Assembly (NCBI GenBank): GCA_902768825.1
Contig: CACXMR010000002.1
Location: 49,019-113,018 of the forward strand
Source of the DNA: an uncultured Ruminococcus sp.
Lineage (GTDB): Bacteria; Bacillota; Clostridia; Oscillospirales; Acutalibacteraceae
Direction of reading: 5' to 3'
DNA length: 64,000 nucleotides
In this document: in pieces, positions 32,724-62,100 of the stretch
Layout: the number at the start of each line of letters is the position of its first letter
Position numbering within the stretch: the first letter of the stretch is position 1
The notes under the pieces: model-generated
Database searches by the model: none
Told to the model about the DNA's origin: nothing
Seen by the model: only the letters and a program-made list of their open reading frames with translations
Program-made: the position numbers and the translations under genes

Positions 32724-33686
32724 TTATTTCAGTCTGAGTATCTCGTCAAATATAGCCTTCATACCGTTGGTTCCGGGAATATGCGCACTGTTGGGTATAA
32801 CCTTACAGTCAAGATGAGAATTGCCTGCTTCCTTGACAAAGGACAGGATGATGCTTGTATCGGTGACGATATCTGTTTCGCCCTGCAAGATATGATAGGG
32901 AACAGCTACGCTTTTCAGAGTCTCCCGCAGATCAAGGGCTGATAGTTCCGTTATCAGGCTCGTGTTTTTCATATAGCCGTTGATCACGACCGCTTTGAAA
33001 TCCCTGAATTTGTAATCGGGGCTTTTCATAATGCCGAGTATGATTTTCCCCACATCTGCCTTAGGTTCATTCGGGTTGTTGTAGCCGTATGTATATTTCC
33101 GGATAGCAGTGCTGATTTTCATTGCTGTTTTGTGATCTATCTTCTTTGAATCAACCGCTGCTTTTATTTCGGCTTTTATCTTTTTGGGCGCTTTTGAATT
33201 CATCAGTGTGTCTATTGTATTCTCGCTTTGCATCAGCTGATAAAGCACCTGACCGTAGGTGATGACACCGCTAATAAGTTCCGGGACCTGCTTTGCTGCC
33301 ATAGCCGACAAAACCGAACCCCATGACATTCCCAAAAGCCACAGGGGATTATCGGGAAATCTGTTTTTGATCTCCTTTATCAGATCAACGGTCATGTTTA
33401 CAAAATCACCGATAGAAATATCCTCAGGCAGCTTTGCGTTGTTGATACCGCAGCCATACTGATCCCAGGATACAAGAATACAATTATCCGTAAAGATGGG
33501 GAACAATCCTCTTGCCCCCACGCAAAAGGGTATCGGCGTACCGGGACCGCCGTGGAGTGTTATTACAACAGGAAGGTTTTTGTTTTTGCCCTCTATCAGC
33601 ACCTTCTGCTTATAACCTCCCAGATTAAACTCCTCCACAACCGATATTTCGTTTGCTGCTATGGCTGCTTTTCTTTCCTTATTCAT
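32724..33686 (-). CDS. Alpha/beta hydrolase, proline iminopeptidase-like
   Basis: A 320-residue hydrolase with the oxyanion motif HGGPG, the nucleophile elbow GMSWGS and a C-terminal His in NSAHIPG. HGGPG is typical of proline iminopeptidases and related esterases. The substrate is not clear. Two adjacent ATGs exist; GAGGGG lies 2 bases before the one at 33689 and 5 before the one at 33686, so I use the latter. The start overlaps the end of the PadR regulator gene by 8 bases, so regulator and enzyme are coupled. Confidence 0.85.
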   Translation of the reverse strand: MNKERKAAIAANEISVVEEFNLGGYKQKVLIEGKNKNLPVVITLHGGPGTPIPFCVGARGLFPIFTDNCILVSWDQYGCGINNAKLPEDISIGDFVNMTVDLIKEIKNRFPDNPLWLLGMSWGSVLSAMAAKQVPELISGVITYGQVLYQLMQSENTIDTLMNSKAPKKIKAEIKAAVDSKKIDHKTAMKISTAIRKYTYGYNNPNEPKADVGKIILGIMKSPDYKFRDFKAVVINGYMKNTSLITELSALDLRETLKSVAVPYHILQGETDIVTDTSIILSFVKEAGNSHLDCKVIPNSAHIPGTNGMKAIFDEILRLK

Positions 33687-34242
33687 CATAACCCCTCATT
33701 TCAATTAACAGATCTTCATACCACTTTATCGTAAAGGCCAACAGATCACGGCCAAAGCGTGCGGTTGCAAGCTGATAAAAAATGATGTCCTTTGCTTGCT
33801 TCTCCAGACTTATGTAAGCTTCCGAGCGGACGAAATCTTCCGACTCATCGCACATAAACTTCAGCGACTCATGCTTAATCTTTAATTCGTTAATATACTT
33901 TTCAATTATTTCCGGGCGTTTTTCCTCCTCAGAAAAGCCCAAAAAATAAACCTTTGTAAGCTCAGGACATTTAATCCCGGTGGATTCAATAGGACTGTTT
34001 ATCCAGCTGTTAAATTCCTGTCTGCCGGCTTCGGTGATATAATATTCCTTTTTCTTTTTACCGTTTTCCAGAATATCATTGTAATCTATGAAGCCGTTAT
34101 CAAGCAGTTTTTTAAGACCCGCCTGTATGCTTCCGGTACTGCTGCTGTACATGATATTCAGCCCTTTGTCGATCCGGCTTCGCAGCTGATAGATAGTCCT
34201 GTTGCTGAGTATCAGTAGACCAAGAATGATATATTCCGTAAC
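33679..34242 (-). CDS. PadR family transcriptional regulator with non-standard start codon
   Basis: The winged-helix N-terminus reads TEYIILGLLILSNRT, then QLRSRIDKGLNIMYSSS, the PadR pattern, followed by a C-terminal helical dimer domain (about 187 residues in all). An in-frame ATG at 34152 would cut off the first half of the DNA-binding domain. Upstream of the conserved TEY there is no ATG, GTG or TTG downstream of the AGGAGGG site: the codons are ATT, GTT, ACG. The in-frame TTG at 34273-34275 lies inside the promoter -10. I place the start at the GTT as a best guess. The gene is coupled to the hydrolase and carries a promoter/operator typical of self-repression. Confidence 0.75.
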   Translation of the reverse strand, partial: VTEYIILGLLILSNRTIYQLRSRIDKGLNIMYSSSTGSIQAGLKKLLDNGFIDYNDILENGKKKKEYYITEAGRQEFNSWINSPIESTGIKCPELTKVYFLGFSEEEKRPEIIEKYINELKIKHESLKFMCDESEDFVRSEAYISLEKQAKDIIFYQLATARFGRDLLAFTIKWYEDLLIEMRGYDE

Positions 34243-50378: not shown

Positions 50379-52463
50379 ATGCGTAGAATCGATATGGCAC
50401 CGACTCACACATTGAAGGGGATACGTTACAGAGCCGGTCATGTGTTTCCCTTCGGCGTCAGCCTGATCGAAGACGGAGTGCAGTTCAGCGTTTTTTCCAG
50501 GGAGGCCACCGGATGTACACTGGTGCTCTATAATCAGGGGGAATCAAAGCCGTTTATTGAGATCCCGTTCCCTGAGGAATTCCGGATAGGAAATGTCTAT
50601 TCCATGATCGTGTTTGACCTGAATATCGAGACACTTGAATACGGTTTCAGATTTGACGGTCCGTGGGACCCTCAAAACGGTCTGCGCTTCAATAAGAATC
50701 TTGTTCTGCTTGATCCCTATGCTCACTCCGTATCGGGCCGCTCGGTATGGCGTGAAAAGCCCAAGCAAGGACGCTTTCAGCACCGGGGCAAGATTATCCT
50801 GGAGGATTATGACTGGGAGGGCGACAAGCCGCTGGAACTGCCGGGCAAGGATCTGATCATCTATGAGATGCACATCCGCTCCTTTACTGCCGACCCGTCA
50901 TGTGGTGTCCGTTTTAAAGGCACCTTCGCAGGACTGGTGGAAAAGATACCCTACCTCAAGGAGCTTGGGGTGAACTGTGTAGAGCTCATGCCCATATTCG
51001 AGTTTGACGAGTTTGAAAACAGCCGGGGTGATCTGGTGAATTACTGGGGCTATTCCACCGTCAACTTTTTCTCTCCCAAGGCTGGTTACGCTGCCTCTGC
51101 CCGTTACGGCACTGAGGCGGACGAGCTAAAAAACATGATAAAGAACCTTCACGCCAACGGCATACAGGTCATACTTGATGTTGTGTTCAATCACACTGCT
51201 GAAGGAAACGAGCATGGCCCCACTATTTCTTATCGGGGTATCGACAACAGAACCTACTATCTCCTGACTCCTGACGGGTATTATTATAATTTCAGCGGGT
51301 GCGGCAACACCATGAACTGCAACAACTCCATTGTCAGAAACGTGGTTTTGGACTGTCTGAGATATTGGGTGGCTGCCTATCACGTTGACGGCTTCCGCTT
51401 TGATCTTGCGTCAATTCTTTCCCGTGACGAAAACGGCACTCCCATGATGAATCCACCGCTGCTTGAAAGCATTGCCCATGACTCAGTATTGGGAAACTGT
51501 GTGCTTATAGCCGAAGCATGGGACGCAAGCGGTCTTTATCAGGTGGGGTCCTTTCCAGCATACGGCCGATGGGCGGAGTGGAACGGTAAATACAGGGACT
51601 GTGTGCGCCGCTTCATAAAGGGCGCAGCCGAGTGTGCTCCGGAGATGTACCTTCGCATTGGCGGCTCGCCTGATATGTATTCCGGCAGGTCATCGGCTGC
51701 ATCGGTAAATTTCATAACCTGTCACGACGGGTTTACACTGCGTGATCTTGTTTCATATAACGAAAAACACAACGAAAACAACGGTGAGGATAACCGTGAC
51801 GGCTGCAATGACAATAATTCCTGGAACTGCGGTGTGGAGGGCGAAACTGATGATCCGGAGATACTTGCCCTGCGCCTGCGTCAGATGAAGAATATGCTGA
51901 CGATACTCCTGACCAGCAGAGGTATTCCTATGCTTCTGTCGGGGGATGAGTTTGGTAACACCCAGTTTGGAAACAACAACGCCTATTGTCAGGACAATGA
52001 GATATCCTGGCTTGACTGGACACTTCTTGACAGCAACCGGGAATTGTTCGACTATGTGCGCCGGCTAATTGCCTTCCGCAAGGCTCATCCGGTGCTGCGT
52101 TCAGAAAACTATGAAACGGGACATAACGGCACAGGCTATCCGGAGCTGTCGTTCCATGGGACTGAGCCATGGGATCTTGATGCAGAAGGTCCCGGACTGT
52201 GCTTTGCAAGCCTTTGGGCTGAGGATCACGTCCGCTTCGGGACGAAGAAGGACTGCTTCCTCTATGTATTGGTCAATGCCCATTGGGAGGAGCATGATTT
52301 TGGATTGCCCATAGTCCCTCAGGGCTTCAAGTGGCACATAGCCTTCGAGTCAAACGGAATATCCACCGAGCCAGGGGAGGAGCTGCCCCTCAGGGGGGAG
52401 CGCATTACACTTGGTGCAAGAACTACTGCAGTGCTTATTGCCAAGACTAAGGGCCGGGGCTGA
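50379..52463 (+). CDS. Glycogen debranching enzyme / isoamylase-type GH13 (GlgX-like)
   Basis: A 694-residue enzyme cutting alpha-1,6 branches in glycogen or related glucans. The N-terminal CBM48-like domain (GVSLIEDGVQFSVFS) is followed by the GH13 barrel with VDGFRFDLAS (nucleophile Asp), LIAEAWDASG (acid Glu) and NFITCHDGFTLRDLV (third Asp). The start is the ATG at 50379, 8 bases after AAGGCGG. There is no signal peptide, so it acts on intracellular glycogen. It could also be an intracellular pullulanase-like enzyme. Confidence 0.9.
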   Translation: MRRIDMAPTHTLKGIRYRAGHVFPFGVSLIEDGVQFSVFSREATGCTLVLYNQGESKPFIEIPFPEEFRIGNVYSMIVFDLNIETLEYGFRFDGPWDPQNGLRFNKNLVLLDPYAHSVSGRSVWREKPKQGRFQHRGKIILEDYDWEGDKPLELPGKDLIIYEMHIRSFTADPSCGVRFKGTFAGLVEKIPYLKELGVNCVELMPIFEFDEFENSRGDLVNYWGYSTVNFFSPKAGYAASARYGTEADELKNMIKNLHANGIQVILDVVFNHTAEGNEHGPTISYRGIDNRTYYLLTPDGYYYNFSGCGNTMNCNNSIVRNVVLDCLRYWVAAYHVDGFRFDLASILSRDENGTPMMNPPLLESIAHDSVLGNCVLIAEAWDASGLYQVGSFPAYGRWAEWNGKYRDCVRRFIKGAAECAPEMYLRIGGSPDMYSGRSSAASVNFITCHDGFTLRDLVSYNEKHNENNGEDNRDGCNDNNSWNCGVEGETDDPEILALRLRQMKNMLTILLTSRGIPMLLSGDEFGNTQFGNNNAYCQDNEISWLDWTLLDSNRELFDYVRRLIAFRKAHPVLRSENYETGHNGTGYPELSFHGTEPWDLDAEGPGLCFASLWAEDHVRFGTKKDCFLYVLVNAHWEEHDFGLPIVPQGFKWHIAFESNGISTEPGEELPLRGERITLGARTTAVLIAKTKGRG

Positions 52464-52478
52464 ATAGTGGCTTTGCAG

Positions 52479-53330
52479 CTAATCTGACGCCTTGCCGGAC
52501 ACTGACAGCAGGTGACAGGATAATCCGATGATCTCCTCATTGGTATCAAGCATCCGCACAGTATTCATCAGGGCGTTTCGGGATGCTTCGTTTTTCCACA
52601 GCTCGTCGATGTTGTTGGCAAGCCATGCGCCGCCCATGACCCCGTGTACTACAGTATCACGAAAGCCGCCCTCTTCAAGCTCTGACCTCAGGGCTTTTGC
52701 GGTGTGCAGGTTGGAGCTTCCCAGTCCGTTATAGACTTCCTTGTTCGGATTGATATGGCAGCCGTCCTTCAGTTCTCTTTCCACCATTGCCAGGAACCCC
52801 GGATCCTCAAGGCAGGTTTCTCCGTTGGCGGGAGAATAGACTGTGATATTGTAAAGCAGTACGGAGAAGGGGGTCAGAGCAGCCGTAAAAAGCTTTCCGC
52901 CGTTTTTGAGCAGGCGCCTGCTTTCCCTGATGGCGATGATGCGCTCATCGTGATCGGTGATGTGGTAAAGCGGACCCATTAGCATTACCGCATCTGCGCT
53001 GTTATCGGGTCTTGGTACGCTTCGTGCGTCACAGACCTCGCTTGAATAAAGGGAGCAGCCGGGATATTCCCCTGCAAGCTCCTTGCTCATTCTGATGTTT
53101 GTGGGGGACAGGTCAAACAGATGCACCTCGTATCCGAGTGAAGAGAGCCACCATGAGTATTCTCCGTATGCGCCGCCGATGTCATAGATCACCGCAGGCG
53201 GTGCGGGCAGGTTTTCCAGGAGTATCTCCTTGGTTCTCTCAAATTCGATCAATCCGATATCTGATCTCAGTCGGTTGTATTCTCTTCCGGCCTCGTAGTA
53301 AGCCAGAACGGACTTGTCTATAGTTTTCAT
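52479..53330 (-). CDS. Class I SAM-dependent methyltransferase
   Basis: A 283-residue small-molecule-type methyltransferase. Motif I is VIYDIGGAYGEYS, and the acidic end of strand 2 is in VHLFDLSP. MLMGPLYHITDHDER follows, as in UbiE-like enzymes. The substrate is unknown. The start is the ATG at 53330, 9 bases after GGAG. The ATG at 53360 lacks a ribosome site. It lies downstream of the 28-codon gene and its terminator, and a small frame with a strong site overlaps its start, so its expression may depend on read-through or coupling. Confidence 0.88.
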   Translation of the reverse strand: MKTIDKSVLAYYEAGREYNRLRSDIGLIEFERTKEILLENLPAPPAVIYDIGGAYGEYSWWLSSLGYEVHLFDLSPTNIRMSKELAGEYPGCSLYSSEVCDARSVPRPDNSADAVMLMGPLYHITDHDERIIAIRESRRLLKNGGKLFTAALTPFSVLLYNITVYSPANGETCLEDPGFLAMVERELKDGCHINPNKEVYNGLGSSNLHTAKALRSELEEGGFRDTVVHGVMGGAWLANNIDELWKNEASRNALMNTVRMLDTNEEIIGLSCHLLSVSGKASD

Positions 53331-53421
53331 AGCAATTATCTCCTTTTTGATAGTATTCATTAGTGTTGGGTTGGTAGGCTTCGCTATTTGTTTGCTGGTG
53401 GTGAACGTCCTGTTCCGGCAT
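53239..53421 (-). CDS. Possible upstream ORF overlapping the methyltransferase start (60 aa)
   Basis: The ATG at 53421 has an almost ideal ribosome site, AAAGGAGGG, ending 6 bases before it. The frame begins MPEQDVHHQQTNSEAYQPN, is rich in Gln, Asn and Tyr, and runs 92 bases into the methyltransferase gene in another frame. Either it is a real small peptide or a coupling uORF. The C-terminal half is Arg-rich and simply reads the methyltransferase gene out of frame, so a conserved function for that half is unlikely. Confidence 0.35.
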   Translation of the reverse strand: MPEQDVHHQQTNSEAYQPNTNEYYQKGDNCYENYRQVRSGLLRGRKRIQPTEIRYRIDRI

Positions 53422-53440
53422 ATCGGACCCTCCTTTCAAA

Positions 53441-53484
53441 AAATAAAAAACCGGTCAGAAGCTCACACAGAGCCGCTGACCGGT
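53441..53484 (-). terminator. Intrinsic terminator after the 28-codon gene
   Basis: On the minus strand: ACCGGTCAG and CTGACCGGT (9 bp), with an inner GCTC/GAGC helix and TGTGT loop, then TTTTTTATTTT. It lies 17 bases after the small gene and about 110 bases before the methyltransferase start. Confidence 0.92.
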
Positions 53485-53500
53485 ATTTTGTCGTTAAGCG

Positions 53501-53587
53501 TTATTTTGCACACAACAAACCAAGCCAGATGCCCTGATCGACACTGACCTGCTGCTGGCCTATTCTGTTTGAGAAAAAGTCAGACAT
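53501..53587 (-). CDS. 28-residue peptide gene with its own promoter and terminator, unknown
   Basis: A complete mini-gene. AAAGGAGG lies 9 bases before the ATG, there are 28 codons, TAA, then an intrinsic terminator. The peptide begins MSDFFSNR, has a run of three Gln (residues 11-13), and ends in a hydrophobic stretch with one Trp and one Cys (WLGLLCAK). It lacks a classical signal peptide and a double-glycine leader. Possible roles: a small regulatory or signalling peptide, a RiPP precursor, a membrane-associated micropeptide, or a leader peptide controlling read-through into the methyltransferase. The full set of expression signals makes a chance frame unlikely. Confidence 0.7.
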   Translation of the reverse strand: MSDFFSNRIGQQQVSVDQGIWLGLLCAK

Positions 53588-53615
53588 TGCTGTGTACCTC
53601 CTTTACGTTTACGAC

Positions 53616-53644
53616 ATTATAACACCTGGTTCCATTTTTGTCAA
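53616..53644 (-). promoter_or_regulatory. Consensus promoter of the 28-codon gene
   Basis: On the minus strand: TTGACA, 17 bases, TATAAT, perfect in both hexamers and spacing. The transcript would be about 165 bases if it ends at the terminator. Confidence 0.92.
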
Positions 53645-53648
53645 GTCA

Positions 53649-53674
53649 GGTGGACTTTTTAGGAAAAGTCCACC
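53649..53674. promoter_or_regulatory. Perfect dyad directly upstream of the small-gene promoter
   Basis: GGTGGACTTTT-TAGG-AAAAGTCCACC: 11-base arms and a 4-base loop, ending 5 bases from the -35. It could be an activator or repressor site for the promoter, or the hairpin that ends the hydrolase operon. No T tract follows on either strand, which favours a protein site. Confidence 0.6.
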
Positions 53675-53682
53675 CGAAAACA

Positions 53683-53789
53683 CTGTTCGCATTATCAGTC
53701 TAAACAAATATGCAATTTAGTCTCTGCGTATTGAGACTAAAAAATGCGAGGGTATAGTAACAAATTCGTCTCTCTGCCACCGCGAACAG
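53683..53789. repeat. Nested inverted repeats in the gap between the hydrolase and the small gene
   Basis: CTGTTCGC (53683-53690) and GCGAACAG (53782-53789) enclose a second inverted repeat, TTTAGTCTC with GAGACTAAA (about 53716-53741). The whole could fold as one structured RNA at the 3' end of the hydrolase operon, or be a small degenerate repeat element. No coding frame is evident. Confidence 0.45.
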
Positions 53790-53807
53790 GGGAGCGCAGG
53801 AGAAATT

Positions 53808-54776
53808 TTAGTTTTCGATGAAGCTGAGGATGTCCTCATAAACGTGCATCTTCCGCTTCTCGTGGAGAACATCGTGGCGCATACCCTTGTAGAGCTTGCC
53901 CTTCACGTTTTTGTAGCCCATCCTTTTCAGGAAGTAGAGCGCCTCTACCATCTTCTGGACCGAAACGGCGCAGGGATCGTCCGCTCCTGAGAAAAAGCGT
54001 ATGGGCATATCGGGATTTTTCGGAGTAAAGCCGGGAGTGTATGCAAGCAACGCCATCTTCAGCATTTCCTCATACCCACTCAACGTGAAGTTGAACTTGC
54101 ACATAGGATCATTGTTGTGCTCGATGACGGCTTCCCTCACTGAGTTAGTCCAGGCGTTATGCAGCCCCTCATGCTTGAACCTGCGCTCATAGTTGTTTCC
54201 CATGATGAGCTTCTTGGCAAGCTTTGAGCGGGACTTGTATCCCTCGAGTATCCTCAGGCACTTCAGCACCGTCAATCCCTGAATGATCTTATCCGACTTG
54301 GACGGGGAACCGGTAAGCACCAGCTTGCTGATGTCTGCATCGTATTTACGGATATAGCACCTTGCAGCCAGTGAGCCCATGCTGTGCCCAAGAAGAGTGA
54401 CCGGAAGATCGTCCCGTCCGCACTTGGCACGGGCATATTCCTTTACCTCAAGAGTGATCTCATGGACGTCATCAATCAGTCCACGATAACCGCCCTCATA
54501 GAAAAGTCCTCTGTCCGCAGGCGCCAGAACGCTCTCGCCGTGTCCACGGTGATCATTCACTATGGTCATATAGCCATGTCCGGCGAGATAACGCATAAAA
54601 GCGGTATATCGCCCCTTGTGCTCGTTCTTTCCGTGCACCATCTGAACAATGCCCTTTATGACCGCAGGATCCTCAGGTTCAATCCGCAGGACGCAGATGG
54701 GCAGTCCGTCGGTCCCTGAGATGTGAGTGTATTTTGTCTCGATAAGATTAGTATTGTTGTTAATCAATAGTTTCAT
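53808..54776 (-). CDS. Alpha/beta hydrolase, lysophospholipase / monoacylglycerol lipase type
   Basis: A 322-residue serine hydrolase. The nucleophile elbow is LLGHSMGS, the oxyanion segment is VHGKNEHKGRY, the catalytic Asp is in FFSGADDPC and the His is in GMRHDVLHE. It is the last gene of the condensation operon. Its start overlaps the acyl ligase end by 17 bases, so the two are coupled. In this setting it could supply fatty acid from a glycerolipid, release product from the carrier, or hydrolyse the product; which is inference. Confidence 0.87.
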   Translation of the reverse strand: MKLLINNNTNLIETKYTHISGTDGLPICVLRIEPEDPAVIKGIVQMVHGKNEHKGRYTAFMRYLAGHGYMTIVNDHRGHGESVLAPADRGLFYEGGYRGLIDDVHEITLEVKEYARAKCGRDDLPVTLLGHSMGSLAARCYIRKYDADISKLVLTGSPSKSDKIIQGLTVLKCLRILEGYKSRSKLAKKLIMGNNYERRFKHEGLHNAWTNSVREAVIEHNNDPMCKFNFTLSGYEEMLKMALLAYTPGFTPKNPDMPIRFFSGADDPCAVSVQKMVEALYFLKRMGYKNVKGKLYKGMRHDVLHEKRKMHVYEDILSFIEN

Positions 54777-56292
54777 CCCTTAATACTTCTGTACGGATAA
54801 TTTTTCTGGATGCGTTTTTAAAGAAAGGATTCTTTCTGACAACAAGTCTTGAAAGCTGCTTATAGGTGGGCTGTGACTTGTTGTATTCGTCAAGTATCTT
54901 CTGCAGAGCGGCAGTGATTTCCTCCTCGCTCATGGAGGCGACAAGCTCCTTTTCGGGATAGATACGGGCGGTAAGCAGGTTGTCCTCACCGGTAACGATA
55001 ATCTCATCGATAAGGTCGTTGAGTGCAAGCTTGCCCTCTATCTCCTCAGGGGAGATGTTTTCACCGTTGGAGAGAATGATAAGGTTCTTGACTCTTCCGT
55101 TGATGAAGATAAAGCCGTCCTCATCAATATAGCCCTTATCGCCGGTATGCAGCCAGCCGTCCTTCAGAGTTTCCTCGGTCTCCTTCTCCATCTTGTAGTA
55201 GCCCTTCATCACGCTGGTGCCGCGTACAAGTATCTCTCCGTTTTCAAATTTGATTTCGGCATTTGACAGAGCTCTGCCTATAGAGCCGGGCTTGCATGCG
55301 CCTTCTCTGTTGTTGGTGATAACAGGAGAGCACTCGGACATTCCATAGCCCTCATAGACCTTTATGCCATACTTCTCAAACTCTCCGATGTAATACGGAT
55401 CAAGATGAGCACCACCTGTAAAGATACGGTTAAGATTAGTTCCGAATACCTTCTTGGCAAGCATTTCCGGAGGAACATCGCTGCCAAGGGACTTGAGCCT
55501 CTTGTAGATGGTTTCCAGCATAAGCGGCACCATGAGCATTACGTCAGGATTATAAATGCTCATATTCCTTATCATATGCCTCAGATTATCATTTATGCAC
55601 AAAACCGAACCCATCCAGAAGCCGTTGAGCCAATCCATTGTAAGGCAAAACGCATGATGAACAGGCAGTACGCTGAGGAATACCAGACCGGGTCCCTCTT
55701 CATAGAGAACAGCCTCAATGTTGGAATAGAGATTGCACTGTGTAAGCATTACGCCCTTGCTCTTTCCTGTGGTGCCGGAGGTGTAAACGATCATTGAAAC
55801 ATCGTCCTCCAACGGCTCTTCAGGCTCGGCCTGATCCTTGCCGGCAGCTATGAGATCAGCGACAGTCTCAGTGCCCTCAACCGAGTCTCCGGAGAGCATC
55901 CAGATCTTCTTTACCATGGGACAGTTTTCCTTGATCTTCGGTGCAAGAGACGCAAATTTTTCGTCAAGGAACACACCCTCTGAATCAGAACGATAGACAA
56001 GATCGATCAGATCCTCTGCAGGAAGACCGGAATCCAGCGGAACGGCAGCGTTAGTGCTGGTTACTATCGACATATAGGCCTGTATCCACTCAGCAGAGCT
56101 TGTGCCGATGAGTGCGATATGCACTCTGGAAAAGCCCAGTGCAGCAAAGCCTTTTCTCATAGCGGCGGAGGCGGCAGCCAGCTCGCCGTAGGTGCGCTCA
56201 TGTATATCCTTTTTTACAAGCCAGCGCACAGCGGGAAGAGGGGAGTAGTTTTCTTCGCATCTTTTCCACATGGTATAGATCGTTTTATTCAT
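54760..56292 (-). CDS. AMP-forming acyl ligase (adenylation enzyme of an NRPS-like system)
   Basis: A 510-residue ANL-family enzyme, activating a carboxylate with ATP and passing it to a thiol. Core motifs: IVYTSGTTGKSKGV (P-loop), EGYGMSECSP, GDKGYIDEDGFIFINGRVKNLI (hinge) and the C-terminal catalytic lysine in ASRKIIR. The overall sequence is closer to long-chain acyl-CoA synthetases than to amino-acid adenylation domains, so a fatty acid is the likely substrate and the carrier protein encoded next door the likely acceptor. It lies 31 bases after the carrier gene. Confidence 0.9.
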   Translation of the reverse strand: MNKTIYTMWKRCEENYSPLPAVRWLVKKDIHERTYGELAAASAAMRKGFAALGFSRVHIALIGTSSAEWIQAYMSIVTSTNAAVPLDSGLPAEDLIDLVYRSDSEGVFLDEKFASLAPKIKENCPMVKKIWMLSGDSVEGTETVADLIAAGKDQAEPEEPLEDDVSMIVYTSGTTGKSKGVMLTQCNLYSNIEAVLYEEGPGLVFLSVLPVHHAFCLTMDWLNGFWMGSVLCINDNLRHMIRNMSIYNPDVMLMVPLMLETIYKRLKSLGSDVPPEMLAKKVFGTNLNRIFTGGAHLDPYYIGEFEKYGIKVYEGYGMSECSPVITNNREGACKPGSIGRALSNAEIKFENGEILVRGTSVMKGYYKMEKETEETLKDGWLHTGDKGYIDEDGFIFINGRVKNLIILSNGENISPEEIEGKLALNDLIDEIIVTGEDNLLTARIYPEKELVASMSEEEITAALQKILDEYNKSQPTYKQLSRLVVRKNPFFKNASRKIIRTEVLRDETID

Positions 56293-56323
56293 ATTATACC
56301 TCTCTTATCAGTTGTAAATATTA

Positions 56324-56575
56324 TCAGTTGTCGATATACTCCTTCAGAAGGTCGATAGCGTCCTGCACTGTTACTATGCCTGCAAGCTTGCTGTCATCCT
56401 CGCTGAATTCAAACTCAACATCGAATTCATCCTCCAGGTCGCCAAGCAATGTCATGAGATCAAGAGAGCTCAGACCAAGATCGTTACGAAGGTTCATGTC
56501 AGTGGTGATGTCCTCAGCCTTAACTGAGCAGTAGCGTTCTGCGACTTCCTTGAATTTCTGTTCAATGTTTTCCAT
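56324..56575 (-). CDS. Acyl/peptidyl carrier protein
   Basis: An 83-residue acidic carrier. The phosphopantetheine serine is S37 in LGLSSLDL, where the usual DSL is SSL. The helix following it (DLMTLLGDLEDEFDVEF) is typical. The start is the ATG at 56575, 10 bases after AAAGGAG. Its place between the condensation and ligase genes, away from fatty acid synthesis genes, suggests it is dedicated to this pathway. Confidence 0.92.
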   Translation of the reverse strand: MENIEQKFKEVAERYCSVKAEDITTDMNLRNDLGLSSLDLMTLLGDLEDEFDVEFEFSEDDSKLAGIVTVQDAIDLLKEYIDN

Positions 56576-56615
56576 AATGATAAAACTCCTTTCAGTTTCC
56601 TGTACGTTTTGGTTA

Positions 56616-58004
56616 TCAGACCATGTCGATGATCTCTGAGAGTGTTCTGCCGGGATCCTCAATGCCCCTGAACAGTATGCGCATCATGTAATAATACATA
56701 CGCTCTGCATCGTTTTCTGTCAGCTGAACTGTCTGATAGTGGTAAGAGAAGTTGAGCTTTCTGTCGGGCAGGTGGGATACTGTGAGGTACATCTTCTTTG
56801 TAGCGGCGCCGTTTGCAAACCACTTTACATAAACAGGCATCTTCTCAGCGTTGGGGTTCAGATCCTTGGTGTTCATGGGCGGCTGATAGGTCAGATAAAC
56901 GCTAACATATGTGGTATCATCGGGTGTGTTGTAGCGCTTCTTCATCTCGGCTCTGATCATCTCAGGATCGTATCCGCTGTACATATAGATACGGTTCTGA
57001 TGGTTCTGTATCATTCTTGCCGCATCGATAAAGGTCGTATCTCCCGGAATCACCGTTCTGCAGGGGAAGCACAATACACGGCTGCCGCCGGAGGTAAGCT
57101 CGTCACGAGTGGAACGTCTGGCGACGAAGTTTTCTATGGTGATATCCTCCTGACCGTTGTTCATCTTTGAGAGATATGTTCTGATGACCAGCAGAATGAG
57201 GTTTGTCGGAGAGATCTGGTTGTTCAGGCAGAAGTTGATAGCACGCTGCATTGAGTCTACCTCAAGCTGATAGTCCTTTACTGCAACAAAGAGCTCCTTC
57301 CTCTCGATGTCAACGGCTCTCAGATTGGGATCGTTGTGCTTTTTGCGGGCTTCCTCCAGCACTGATGGACCCTGGATATCGGAATAGAGAGGCTCTCCGT
57401 ATGTATCAAGCTCCTCGTCCCAGAAGCGCTTTGCCTTTGCCAGACGTTTTTCGTTATTCTGCTTCTCAAGATCAGAGATGAGCACCTTTTCAAAATCTGC
57501 AAGGGGAGCAGGGTAATCCTCACCAAACTTGAGGTGCTTATACAGGTTCATGATGTCCGTAGCCATTACTGCAACGCCTACAGAGTCATTGAGTCTGTGG
57601 TCCATGTGAACGAAAAAGCCGGTATAGTTGTCGGGGAGCTTCACGATGCGGAACTCGCACATGGGGATATCATCGCCGTCAAAGGTTTCATAAGCCCAAC
57701 TCTGCATGATATCATTTGCTTCCTTCATGGTCTTGTCGGTGAAATCATATTCTGCATAGTCCTGCTCTTCCCAGTCAGCGATATACTGGAGGATTTTGCC
57801 GTTTTCATCCGGCTTTGTAAAGCGTAGTCTCAGACAGGCATATCTTTCCTGTTCGAGGTTGATGCTTCTCTTCAGCACCGGGATATCGATATCTGCCTGG
57901 AAGGCGGCTACGATGCTGAGTCCCGATACCTGCTGTGTCTTATACTCCTTGATCCATTGATAGTGCATATTCTGGGCTGCTGTCAACTCATAGGTTTTTT
58001 TCAT
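56616..58004 (-). CDS. Stand-alone condensation-domain acyltransferase
   Basis: A 462-residue protein with the chloramphenicol-acetyltransferase-like fold of NRPS condensation domains. The active-site motif HHxxxDG appears as D135-H136-R-L-N-D140-S: the catalytic second His and the Asp are kept, the first His and the Gly are replaced. There is no fused adenylation or carrier domain; these are separate downstream genes. The expected reaction is transfer of an acyl group from the carrier to an amine or alcohol. A GAGGAG site precedes the ATG. It is the first gene of a four-gene operon with a consensus-like promoter. Confidence 0.82.
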   Translation of the reverse strand: MKKTYELTAAQNMHYQWIKEYKTQQVSGLSIVAAFQADIDIPVLKRSINLEQERYACLRLRFTKPDENGKILQYIADWEEQDYAEYDFTDKTMKEANDIMQSWAYETFDGDDIPMCEFRIVKLPDNYTGFFVHMDHRLNDSVGVAVMATDIMNLYKHLKFGEDYPAPLADFEKVLISDLEKQNNEKRLAKAKRFWDEELDTYGEPLYSDIQGPSVLEEARKKHNDPNLRAVDIERKELFVAVKDYQLEVDSMQRAINFCLNNQISPTNLILLVIRTYLSKMNNGQEDITIENFVARRSTRDELTSGGSRVLCFPCRTVIPGDTTFIDAARMIQNHQNRIYMYSGYDPEMIRAEMKKRYNTPDDTTYVSVYLTYQPPMNTKDLNPNAEKMPVYVKWFANGAATKKMYLTVSHLPDRKLNFSYHYQTVQLTENDAERMYYYMMRILFRGIEDPGRTLSEIIDMV

Positions 58005-58143
58005 ACTACTCCTCCTAATTTAATATTTTCGTGAGGATCAAATCCCTTCCGCATCTGACATCTGAATTTCTATTCCAAAAACAGAGCGAAAACCTGCCAC
58101 ATTCAGTTCAGCCGCTTCAGAAGGAAAATAATTCCTTTACTAT

Positions 58144-58173
58144 ATTATAACTATCACGGAAAGTAGATGTCAA
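58144..58173 (-). promoter_or_regulatory. Promoter of the condensation operon
   Basis: On the minus strand: TTGACA, 18 bases, TATAAT, giving a leader of about 130 bases before the condensation gene. Confidence 0.8.
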
Positions 58174-58394
58174 TATTTTTTGTATAAATATAATATATTT
58201 TTCTTATGTAATAACCAATAACCTTCACAACCGCGACTATCCTCAAAAATAGGTGTGCAGGGGCTTTTTTTGGCATAGTAAACCCTTTTAACAGCTTGTG
58301 CTGATGATCCGTCCATAAGGCTTTTTTGCTTATGCATAAAAAACAAGTGGTTGTCTGCCTGACTCAAAAAAGAACTAAAATATGTAAATTTGCA
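58174..58394. other. Non-coding gap between divergent promoters
   Basis: AT-rich sequence between the condensation-operon promoter and the acetyltransferase promoter. It contains a small inverted repeat (CATAAG...CTTATG near 58319-58340) and T-rich stretches. A 104-codon minus-strand frame here has no ribosome site and an unusual composition, so I do not call it a gene. Confidence 0.5.
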
Positions 58395-58423
58395 TAGACA
58401 ATTTGTAGCTTTTCTGCTACAAT
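58395..58423 (+). promoter_or_regulatory. Promoter of the sugar acetyltransferase gene
   Basis: TAGACA, 17 bases, TACAAT, 30 bases before the GTG start. Confidence 0.7.
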
Positions 58424-58452
58424 GTAGTAAAATATTCCTTGGAGGGTAAACT

Positions 58453-59088
58453 GTGGATAATATTGATCGAAGAAACAGAGGCATGGCTTATGTGAGTGAT
58501 GAAGCGGTTTTTGCACAGCAGGCACAGTGCCGCAAAAAGCTTCAGCAGCTCAACTTTATGGATAGATCAGATTTTGGCGGCATAGCAGAGGTCGTAAAGG
58601 AGCTTCTCGGCAAGTCGGAGAATGCTTTTATCAACCCTCCCTTTTACTGTGATTACGGCTTCAATATCGAGGTCGGAAAAAACCTTTTTGCAAACTATAA
58701 CTGTACGATAATTGATGTTGCAAAGGTCACTATCGGGGACAACTGTATGCTGGCGCCCAATGTTGCGATCTATACCGCAGGACACCCGATCCATCCCGAT
58801 ACCCGCCGCTCTCTTTATGAGTATGGCAAGCCGGTGGTGATCGGGGACAATGTGTGGATAGGCGGCAATGCGGTGATACTCCCCGGAGTCACAATAGGCT
58901 CCAACTGCGTTATCGGTGCAGGAAGCGTCGTTACCCATGACATCCCTCCGTGGACTGTGTCAGCGGGAAATCCCTGCAGGGTCATCAGGAGTATAACTGA
59001 GCTCGACAGAAAAAAGCTGTTCAAGGATGAGGAGATAGACCCGCAGGCGTGGGAGGATATTGTCCTGCGAGGTTTTGCATCAGAGTAA
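58453..59088 (+). CDS. Sugar O-acetyltransferase (maltose/galactoside acetyltransferase type)
   Basis: A 211-residue left-handed beta-helix acetyltransferase. Hexapeptide repeats run from about residue 75 to 180 (INPPFYCDYGFNIEVGKN, IGDNCMLAPNVAIYTAGHPI, VWIGGNAVILPGVTIG). The catalytic His is in TAGHPIHPD. It uses acetyl-CoA to acetylate a sugar or similar acceptor. The start is a GTG at 58453, 6 bases after GGAGGG. The sensor gene follows 37 bases later with no terminator between, so they may be cotranscribed. Confidence 0.9.
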   Translation: MDNIDRRNRGMAYVSDEAVFAQQAQCRKKLQQLNFMDRSDFGGIAEVVKELLGKSENAFINPPFYCDYGFNIEVGKNLFANYNCTIIDVAKVTIGDNCMLAPNVAIYTAGHPIHPDTRRSLYEYGKPVVIGDNVWIGGNAVILPGVTIGSNCVIGAGSVVTHDIPPWTVSAGNPCRVIRSITELDRKKLFKDEEIDPQAWEDIVLRGFASE

Positions 59089-59125
59089 CGACCCACTCCC
59101 GGCAGATAAAAAGGAGCAAATATAT

Positions 59126-62100
59126 ATGTACAATCCGGAAAATGAGATAAACACTCAATGCAGGATCCCCCGGGCTGGGTCTCATGGCAGAGGAAGCCTA
59201 TTTGCAAGGGCTTTATGCTTTCTGCTCCTGGCGGTGCTGTTTTTGCTGACAGGAAGCCTTTCCCTGACGTCGTTTGCGGAAGAGACAAAGGAGCAACCAT
59301 CAGCTTCTGATCCTGTTTCAAACCGTGACAGATATTCGGCGGTGCTCTATGACAACACCAACGGTCTGCCCACACCAGAAGCCAACGACATTGCAGGCAC
59401 CAACGAGGGTGTTTTGTGGATAGGCAGCTACGGCGGTCTGATAAGATATGACGGCAACACCTTTGAACGTGTGGATTCCACCAACGGCCTTTCCAGCGTT
59501 GTCTGCCTGTTTGTGGACAATTCTCAGCGGCTCTGGATAGGCACCAGTGACAGCGGTCTTTATGTCCTTGAGCAGGGCAAGACCAGGCACTGGCAGAAAT
59601 CTGACGGCATGGCGTCAGCCTTTGTGCATGACATTACTTCCGATAACGGCAATGCCATATATGCAGCCACTTCCTCAGGAGTTGTGATCGTAGATCAGGG
59701 CATGAGGATGCAAAGGCTTGAGGATGAACGCATCAACAATCTGTCCGTCCTTGAGCTCAAGACCGACAGCGAGGGTCTGATCTACGGCCGCACTGCTGAC
59801 GGAGACATATTTACAATCCGTGACGGCGTTGTGGAGACCTTCCTGAGCCAGGAGGACAACACCGTAAAGGGCATCAACTGTATTACTCCTGACCCCCAAA
59901 AGAGCGGGTATCTTTATCTTGGCACCTCCACTTCAGAGGTCTGCTACGGAACGGTCAGCAACGGCTTTAAGGATCATACCAAAAGGGAAGTGCTACCTCT
60001 TTCGTACATCCAGAGCTGCGAGTTTATAAATGACAAGCTGTGGATATGCGCCGGCAACGGTGTGGGAACACTGGTGGGGGATGAGCTGAAGATCCTCGAA
60101 AACGTCCCCATGACCCGTTCCATTGGTCACATCATAACAGATTATGAAAATAACCTGTGGTTCACTTCCACCCGTCAGGGCGTGATGAAGATAGTTCCCA
60201 ATGCTTTTTCGGATATCTATACCCGTTACCGTCTTGACCCGGCGGTAGTAAATTCCACCTGTATGCTCGGGGATCGGCTGTTTATTGCCACTGACGAAGG
60301 GCTGACGGTGCTTGATAATACTGAGGTGGTGCGCTCTGTGCCGCTGACAAGCGCTCAGACTGCCTTGGGCAAGAAGTTTGATGCAAAGGATCTTGTAGCG
60401 CTGCTGAAGGGCGTGCGCATACGCTCAATAATCCGTGACAGCAAGGACAGGCTGTGGATCAGCACCTGGAAAAAATACGGACTGCTCTGTTACGACGGGG
60501 GCGGGCTGACGGTCTTTGCTCAGGAGGACGGGCTTTTGTCCGCCAGCGTGAGGACGGTAATCGAAGGCTCGGACGGTTCGGTCTATGTTGTCAACAGTGG
60601 CGGTTTCAGTGTTATCCGTGACGGAAAGGTTGTCAGAAGCTACAGCACTGAGTCCGGCATAGTCAATACTGAGAGCCTGACAGTCGCTGAGGGCTTCAAC
60701 GGTGAGATACTGCTTGGCTCCGACGGCGACGGGATTTATGTGATACAGGATAAGGTAGTCCGTCACGTGGGCACGGAAAACGGTCTGACCTCGGACGTTA
60801 TCCTGCGCATCAAGCGTGACCGCACCCGCAGGATCTTCTGGATCGTCACCAGCAACTCAATTGCTTTTATGGATGAGAGCTATAATGTAACATCCATCAA
60901 CAAGTTTCCCTATGCAAATAACTTTGATCTTTACCAAAACAGCAAGGACGAGGTCTGGGTGCTCAGCAGCAACGGCATTTATGTGCTGCCCGCTGACGAG
61001 CTGATCGCAAACGGTAGTATAGCTCCGGTTTTTTACGGTATGTCAAACGGTCTGCCTGCCATCTCCACGGCAAACTCCTACAGTGAGCTGACAGTCGATG
61101 GGGAGCTGTATATTGCGGGCACTACCGGTGTGTCCCTTGTCAATATCGAATCGCCCTTTGAGGACATCGCTAACCTTAAAGCCAGTGTTCCTTACATAGA
61201 GGCGGACGGAGTGGTAGTCTATCCTGACCACGAGGGGCATTTCACCATCCCCTCAAATTCACGCAAGCTGACGGTCCACGGCTATGTTTATAACTATTCC
61301 CTTACCACGCCGGAGGTCACATACCAGCTTGAGGGTTTTGAGAGCAGTGATACCACCGTCAACCGTGAGGAGCTTGTTCCTGTCAGCTATACTAACCTTC
61401 CCGGCGGCGAATACCGCTTTGTTATGACGCTGACTGATTCACGGGGCTTCGGGCACAAGACCATGTGGGTTGACATCGAAAAGGAAAAGGCATTCTACGA
61501 GCAGCCCTGGTTTTATATCGTGATCGGTCTTGTCTTCCTGATTTTACTCTTTGTGCTGATCCGCATATACACCTATGTCAAGATGAGCAAGCTGGAACGT
61601 CAGAATCGTGAGAATCTCACCCTTTTGAGCGGGGTCACCGAGGCATTCGCTAAGGTTATCGATATGAAGGACAAATACACCAACGGTCATTCCTTCCGTG
61701 TGGCACAGTATACTACCATGCTTGCAAGGGAGCTGGGCTGTGACGAGGAAACGGTAGAACGCTACCACCATATTGCAATGCTCCACGATGTGGGAAAGAT
61801 CGCCGTGCCCACCGAGGTGCTTAACAAGCCCGGCAAGCTGACTGATGAGGAGTATCACATGATACAGTCCCACGTTGTGCAGGGCTATGAGGTGCTCAAG
61901 GGGATAAACATCATGCCTGAGCTGGCGTTAGGCGCACAGTTCCATCACGAGCGACCCGACGGAAAGGGTTATCCCAACCATCTGAAGGGAGATGAGATTC
62001 CCAGGGTGGCACAGATCATTGCCGTTGCGGACTGCTTTGACGCCATGTATTCTAACCGCCCCTACAGGAAGCGGATGAATTTTGAAAAGGTGGTGTCCAT

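Follow-up and report, generated by a model that had tools for sequence, protein, structure and literature searches.

The fatty acid amide (FAA) synthases of human gut Clostridia make ligands for host G-protein-coupled receptors. As described in the main text of PMC13142362, they consist of free-standing proteins that resemble parts of nonribosomal peptide synthetases (NRPSs), namely a ligase, an acyl carrier protein (ACP) and a condensation protein, which together join fatty acids to free amines; the condensation domains form a separate clade near the starter condensation domains and carry the motif (D/H)HxxxD, in which the next residue is S in 42%, A in 36% and G in 17%. The condensation protein of this class is a homodimer that holo or acyl carrier protein opens. 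The steps have been shown experimentally for OaaA, OaaACP and OaaC of Coprococcus eutactus (OaaC being PDB entry 12KH), and the products obtained in vitro pair oleic, palmitoleic or lauric acid with aminovalerate or γ-aminobutyric acid (GABA) (PMC13142362, main text). Here we analyze an operon of the same build, with a hydrolase gene added, in a 64,000-nucleotide stretch of DNA from an uncultured Ruminococcus sp. (contig CACXMR010000002.1, positions 49,019 to 113,018 of the forward strand), the whole of which we call the window. By its sequence, the operon belongs with the gut FAA synthases, which it extends by a new member and a new host group. Its three-gene core is ordinary for the class; the new part is the pattern in which the hydrolase occurs.

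Relation of the operon to the FAA synthases

Compared with 177,635 distinct PDB sequences, the condensation protein (462 amino acids; window positions 56616-58004 on the reverse strand, which carries all four genes; Pfam Condensation PF00668, E = 3.8e-34) has a sole match at E ≤ 1e-5, OaaC (12kh_A, E = 7.2e-142), to which it is 48% identical over 461 columns, its whole length. Its motif D-H-R-L-N-D-S (residues 135-141) fits the FAA signature, and its length fits the ∼460 amino acids of a stand-alone, OaaC-related condensation protein. The adjoining carrier protein and fatty-acyl ligase are also stand-alone, and no acceptor carrier domain accompanies them; OaaA/OaaACP/OaaC show the same separation, the same absence and the form D-H-R-L-x-D-S. 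In a tree calculated without canonical condensation domains, the protein groups with OaaC (SH-aLRT, the Shimodaira-Hasegawa-like approximate likelihood ratio test, gives 97 and 100 at the forks holding both). The two systems differ in their hosts, a rumen-type Ruminococcus versus C. eutactus, and in gene number, since the main text of PMC13142362 describes three proteins whereas the window operon has the hydrolase gene as a fourth.

The carrier protein (83 amino acids; 56324-56575; PP-binding PF00550, E = 6e-10) has the phosphopantetheine site G-L-S-S-L-D, and its ATG start sits within a longer, TTG-started open reading frame (ORF). Its best NCBIfam matches are fatty-acid ACPs, below their cut-offs. 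For the AMP-forming ligase (510 amino acids; 54760-56292; AMP-binding, E = 1.7e-54, and AMP-binding_C_3), the best NCBIfam model is the long-chain-fatty-acid--CoA ligase PRK06187 (5e-67, below its cut-off), and among solved structures it comes closest to luciferases and acyl/aryl-CoA ligases, at about 110 bits. The genome contains two phosphopantetheinyl-transferase matches.

An earlier note on the window had listed four same-strand genes (condensation, carrier, ligase and hydrolase), and the Pfam families agree with it. The gaps it put at 31-40 bases measure 40 bases (condensation/carrier) and 31 bases (carrier/ligase), the ligase and hydrolase genes overlap by 17 bases as it said, and the TTGACA/TATAAT promoter it placed before the operon lies at 58144-58173 on the reverse strand (TTGACA at 58173, TATAAT ending at 58144), a sigma-70 site with 12 of 12 matches and an 18-base spacer. 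PRK06187 as best model bears out its view that the ligase stands nearer to acyl-CoA synthetases, and its proposal of an FAA pathway of the gut Clostridia type is strengthened by the OaaC match, the architecture and the motif, the only solved-structure match of the condensation protein at E ≤ 1e-5 being itself an FAA enzyme. What must be given up is the suggestion that D-H-x3-D-S signals an unusual acceptor: Because this sequence is the published FAA hallmark, the supposedly altered motif is not unusual within the class.

We sought relatives of the condensation protein with a pattern-based, non-exhaustive scan of 84,980 named species genomes, which gave 144, and kept the best 80 (the named loci). 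These comprise 28 loci of the window clade (condensation protein identity at least 78%, plus locus L091; Ruminococcus records and metagenome-assembled genomes [MAGs] labeled only Clostridiales or Clostridia), three intermediates and 49 Lachnospiraceae-type loci; 29 loci of more distant types were considered besides. A ligase gene follows the condensation gene in 73 of the 80 named loci, and a carrier gene likewise in 73. Among the seven relatives without a ligase gene, four have no room for one (at most 299 bases left), and three (L089, L103 and L111) have instead a TetR-type gene directly behind the condensation gene, with no carrier or ligase gene detected in the stretch retrieved. These three (L089:7001-8976, L103:7001-9041 and L111:7001-8986) are candidates for orphan or decayed operons, or for operons whose partners are encoded elsewhere. 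At L091 (L091:7001-8269, MAG RUG14638), the condensation frame lacks the D-H-x3-D motif, with ligase and hydrolase present and a carrier of just 48% identity; the same MAG also holds a full operon, L052.

On the model of OaaA/OaaACP/OaaC, the ligase would activate a fatty acid with ATP and load it onto the carrier protein, the condensation protein would move the acyl group onto the amino group of a small molecule that diffuses freely, and the N-acyl amide product would leave without a thioesterase. Homology makes it very probable that these three steps run as in the Coprococcus system. The hydrolase would free fatty acids from acylglycerol or lysolipid esters and so feed the ligase. Taken as a whole, the explanation of the four genes as an FAA synthase operon of a rumen-type Ruminococcus is, in our judgment, likely. 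Two points count against it: The FAA product of the window operon is a prediction by homology, and L089, L103 and L111 have a condensation gene without an adjacent carrier and ligase.

The amine acceptor

To consider the acceptor, we aligned 103 condensation proteins, 81 from the clade containing OaaC and 22 from two other FAA clades. D-H-R-L-x-D-S is found in 80 of the 81 OaaC-clade rows (the remaining row is gapped), and the motif arginine is found in none of the other 22. Lysine 404 is present in all 81 and again in none of the 22, and arginine 187 in 96% of the OaaC clade and none of the others, 11 of which have lysine at this site. OaaC itself has R137, R187 and K404. Two basic residues, one beside the catalytic histidine and one in the C lobe, could bind GABA or aminovalerate by its carboxylate, and we put the chances at about even that the acceptor is an omega-amino acid of the GABA/5-aminovalerate kind, as in the oleoyl aminovalerate (OAA) subtype.

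Several observations temper this assignment. By the same criterion, the OaaC clade differs from the other two at 39 positions, some of them acidic or neutral, and the basic ones were singled out from these. Shared ancestry alone would give a clade such residues in common. The window protein is only 48% identical to OaaC, and rows of the OaaC clade vary at the third variable position of the motif, with N, I and M in 25, 42 and five of them, respectively; the pocket therefore differs within the clade. Finally, no match above cut-off to Pyridoxal_deC, the glutamate decarboxylase family, was found in the genome, so that no route of its own to GABA through that enzyme is seen (the search did not extend to a 5-aminovalerate route).

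The same FAA chemistry may instead use a polyamine (putrescine, cadaverine or agmatine), ethanolamine or an aromatic amine, an alternative that we regard as possible though less probable. Besides the missing Pyridoxal_deC match, it draws on two genome matches above cut-off to OKR_DC_1, the Orn/Lys/Arg decarboxylase family, one of them beside a spermidine synthase; two further matches above cut-off, to Orn_Arg_deC_N, look like diaminopimelate decarboxylases. At one named locus, an N-carbamoylputrescine amidase gene (L060:10232-11071, reverse strand) lies directly downstream from an FAA operon without a hydrolase, but this is a single locus and the gene is on the opposite strand. Gut Clostridia have also been reported to conjugate decarboxylated neurotransmitters such as dopamine (PMC13142362, main text; PMC8962300). 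Set against all of this are R137 and K404, which the window protein has in common with the aminovalerate/GABA enzyme OaaC and which appear in none of the 22 rows from other clades. The decarboxylases of the genome itself do not fix the acceptor, and polyamines or imported amines may serve instead. Nor did we recognize any recurrent amine-producing neighbor among the gene families present in at least seven of the 80 named loci, which are the operon genes, a TetR-type regulator, two hydrolases and one ORF family opposite the condensation gene (probably a shadow ORF).

Hydrolases of FAA operons

The fourth gene of the operon (53808-54776; 322 amino acids) encodes an alpha/beta hydrolase of the Hydrolase_4 family (PF12146, E = 1.7e-32, 113 bits) with the nucleophile elbow GHSMG. 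Its linkage to the operon is strict within the window clade: Every locus with room for the hydrolase gene (24 of 24, each with a ligase and at least 700 bases beyond) has it next after the ligase, and the window makes a 25th. These loci are not independent, since some share a MAG and the condensation proteins of three are identical. The window-type hydrolase is found in none of the 41 Lachnospiraceae-type loci with room (out of 49) and in none of the 24 more distant loci with room (out of 29). Among the intermediates, L059 has the window-type hydrolase, L060 has none, and L061 has a different hydrolase at that position. The earlier note's expectation that the four genes would stay together across genomes thus stands for the window clade and fails for the fourth gene in the Lachnospiraceae-type loci.

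The linkage also appears when the hydrolase is taken as the query. In a set of 60 genomes (its own, 36 of the genus and 23 of other families of the order), there are 11 homologs of at least 67% identity (67-100%), all in an FAA operon: Ten share a contig with the condensation gene in operon order, and for the 11th (genome G019), the contig begins within the operon and has the gene behind carrier and ligase. All other matches at E ≤ 1e-20 in these genomes have at most 41% identity. The 11 of 11 and 24 of 24 counts overlap in several loci. This pattern marks the hydrolase as a dedicated, lineage-specific fourth component of the operon in the window clade. Three findings weigh against a general part for it in FAA synthesis. 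L060, a close relative (69%), has no hydrolase, and an opposite-strand nitrilase-type gene follows its ligase. The three OaaC-like loci L113-L115 lack the hydrolase, and it is therefore not required by all FAA operons. It also goes unmentioned in the main text of the OaaC paper (PMC13142362), where the words "hydrolase," "lipase," "Ruminococcus," "Butyrivibrio" and "rumen" have zero occurrences. We found no description of an FAA-operon hydrolase in the literature, and none of the rumen papers listed mentions such operons in its title; the founding study of the gut FAA clusters stands outside this comparison, and priority is unsettled.

Many other FAA operons encode another Hydrolase_4 protein, hydrophobic near its N terminus, upstream of the condensation gene. 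This holds for 17 of the 49 Lachnospiraceae-type loci, 44 of which have at least 1300 bases upstream, and for 11 of the 29 distant loci, where 25 have that much. The upstream protein is found in none of the 28 window-clade loci (17 with at least 1300 bases upstream) and none of the three intermediates. The 11 distant loci are every operon of the D/N-H-M/L type that has upstream sequence (L137, of the same type, has none), and they include two, L132 and L135, from the window's own genus. The upstream hydrolase was not found at the OaaC-like loci L113-L115 or at loci of the H-H-A/C type, nine of which have at least 1300 bases upstream. Those compared form one family (phmmer, 6e-40 or better). 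The hydrolases of the window and of L061 match neither this family nor each other in phmmer, at 17-25% identity in forced alignment; another comparison gave a weak match (5e-6) of the window hydrolase to the upstream hydrolase of L027. A model of the upstream hydrolase of L082 (predicted local distance difference test [pLDDT], 87.8; helix at residues 2-30) most resembles the esterase Pf2001; peptidases and monoglyceride lipases are less specific matches, and the thioesterase DcsB comes low in the fold list.

The L061 stretch (L061:1083-9012) differs again in its layout. A fused adenylation-peptidyl carrier-condensation (A-PCP-C) protein of 1238 amino acids ends there at the start of an FAA-type condensation-carrier-ligase operon, and a third, unrelated PF12146 hydrolase lies 21 bases after the ligase. 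This is possibly a hybrid lipopeptide/FAA cluster.

Unrelated members of PF12146 appear, then, to have been recruited to FAA operons at least twice, and probably three times, at two positions. Such repeated recruitment suggests that the hydrolase has a role in the FAA pathway. As to what that role might be, S132 (in GHSMG), D267 and H301 of the window protein are invariant in 18 aligned hydrolases (the window, 16 of the 24 window-clade loci and L059) and presumably form the catalytic triad; with the Hydrolase_4 fold and the GxSxG elbow, they place it among proteins of the monoglyceride lipase type. An AlphaFold2 model (pLDDT, 88.9) has as its nearest structures a Bacillus coagulans carboxyl esterase (5o7g), the lipase 6khk and monoglyceride lipases, with template modeling (TM) scores of 0.81-0.85 for 5o7g and 6khk_A and of 0.71-0.73 (by query length) for the first-listed mycobacterial and human monoglyceride lipases. 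Although fold and elbow are shared with these proteins, sequence identity is 18%-27%, and the window hydrolase is set apart by its place within an FAA operon. Of the two options named in the earlier note, supplying or removing the acyl group, the modeled fold, that of lipases and monoglyceride lipases, favors the first: Supply of fatty acids to the ligase seems the most likely role, although we would not place it above an even chance.

The hydrolase may alternatively act as a remover, either as an editing thioesterase that clears a mis-acylated carrier or in degradation or recycling of the product. Each of these roles is compatible with the overlap of the hydrolase and ligase genes, and repeated recruitment of unrelated PF12146 hydrolases would be equally expected for editing. 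A weak, below-cut-off match to Palm_thioest (E = 0.0036) and the low-ranking DcsB in the fold list of the upstream hydrolase point the same way. However, type II editing thioesterases belong to PF00975, and the window hydrolase has no match to this family among Pfam families at E ≤ 0.01, which sets it outside that group; the best matches of its model are esterases, lipases and monoglyceride lipases. Further, OaaC works in vitro without an editing thioesterase, and degradation of the amide would be futile within the same transcript. We therefore regard removal as rather unlikely.

We consider it improbable that the hydrolase is a passenger, inherited by the Ruminococcus clade from one ancestral insertion without a part in the pathway. 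All 24 linked loci are related and do not represent independent events, L060 and the Lachnospiraceae-type loci do without the window-type gene, and in L044 the hydrolase reads as two overlapping pieces, as from a sequencing error or gene decay. Yet in the 60 genomes, homologs of at least 67% identity were found only in the operon, and although PF12146 is scarce in the genome (three matches in 2.49 Mb), FAA operons have taken up three mutually unrelated members, at two positions. The window contains a further ORF for an alpha/beta hydrolase of PF12146, at 32724-33689 on the reverse strand (match at 33237-33476).

Acyltransferases of related fold can form esters, and the earlier note had left an acyl ester open beside an N-acyl amine. 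The amine half of that claim is favored by the likeness to OaaC, but an acyl ester or lipid-metabolism operon, with the condensation fold as an O-acyltransferase, is very improbable: The motif does depart from HHxxxDG, but the protein is 48% identical to a proven amide maker with the same motif and the same three components (PMC13142362, main text), and nothing found indicates an alcohol acceptor, although no search was aimed at one.

Returning to fatty acid supply, we tentatively extend it to the family. PF12146 serine hydrolases may be an integral, repeatedly replaced part of clostridial FAA operons that couples cleavage of lipid esters to N-acylation, so that acylglycerols from membranes and the diet (plant lipids, in the rumen) would be converted directly to N-acyl amine signals; in Ruminococcus, a cytoplasmic hydrolase of the monoglyceride lipase type would have taken the place of an ancestral one that was anchored in the membrane and encoded upstream. 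This wider proposal is somewhat doubtful.

Distribution, transcription and significance

Within the 60-genome set, the condensation protein has matches at E ≤ 1e-3 in 24 genomes, made up of 23 of the 37 within the genus and one weak match outside it. The window type is found in nine genomes of the genus (11 loci, 82%-100% identity), and the other genomes mostly have forms at 32%-35%. Of 391 genomes sampled evenly across the class, 20 have a match at E ≤ 1e-30, namely the window's own and 19 outside its order; the eight genomes listed there from other genera of the same family have none. OaaC has matches at E ≤ 1e-40 in 42 of 299 sampled genomes of the family of genome G369; OaaC of C. eutactus itself is not among these, the best match being 57%.

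Among the named loci, relatives at 79%-95% come from Ruminococcus albus KH2T6 and AR67, Ruminococcus sp. YE71 and rumen MAGs. The intermediates, at 67%-70%, are the Ruminococcus MAG L059 (70%), the unlabeled Clostridiales MAG L060 (69%) and L061, and relatives at 59%-67% come from Butyrivibrio, Pseudobutyrivibrio, Lachnospira, Eubacterium and other Lachnospiraceae-type records. In a quick maximum-likelihood tree of 87 condensation proteins, which has no bootstrap, contains long branches and came with a warning about the outgroup, the rows of the window clade fall inside a set labeled Lachnospiraceae, with SH-aLRT support of 93-99 at the nearest forks, and L061, a Lachnospiraceae-labeled MAG, sits beside the window clade. 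This nesting, together with the lack of a match in the eight other-genus genomes of the family, suggests that the Ruminococcus FAA genes probably came from a Lachnospiraceae-like source by horizontal transfer. The genus as a whole holds at least three types of FAA operon: D-H-R-L with the downstream hydrolase, H-H-A/C-C, and D/N-H-L with the upstream hydrolase. Two types occur together in genomes G004 and G025, and G012 and G025 each have two window-type copies.

Between 53300 and 58700, there are 13 promoter-like sites scoring at least 9/12 (8.2 are expected in shuffles), and just two score 12/12. One is the operon promoter; the other, at 53616-53644 on the reverse strand, has a TG before its second hexamer and stands ahead of a methyltransferase gene (52479-53360), which is probably a separate unit since it has its own promoter. 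The flank on the other side is a maltose O-acetyltransferase-like gene on the opposite strand (58453-59088), and these two neighbors bound the operon as a unit of four genes. Across 29 upstream regions (the window and 28 related loci), the best promoter site scores 12/12 in 18, 11/12 in eight, 10/12 in one and 9/12 or less in two, these being best-of-scan values over up to 230 bases without a shuffled control. We reject a structured RNA in the 136-base 5′ leader, given a fold z-score of −0.69 and no Rfam match at gathering scores in 52000-60000.

A TetR-family gene is clustered with the operon in 41 of the 80 named loci, namely 40 of the 49 Lachnospiraceae-type loci (e.g., L064:10207-10860, reverse strand) and L060. 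It is convergent with the ligase gene and adjoins it in 34, and in L089, L103 and L111, where carrier and ligase are missing, the convergent gene directly follows the condensation gene. The family assignment comes from a Pfam run on one member (L060:733-1392; TetR_N and TetR_C_8). No TetR gene is clustered at the window-clade loci, as far as the flanks reach. The window operon is probably transcribed strongly and constitutively from its consensus promoter, and this promoter and the lack of a clustered TetR gene suggest that expression is constitutive in Ruminococcus and under regulation in Lachnospiraceae.

These results place a clade of FAA synthases in rumen-type Ruminococcus, including R. 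albus strains, with related versions in Butyrivibrio and Pseudobutyrivibrio, so that the same FAA chemistry probably takes place in ruminants. They point to a lipase-like hydrolase as an overlooked fourth component of FAA synthesis, recruited at least twice and probably three times, and the signature of the motif arginine may predict the class of acceptor across FAA operons.

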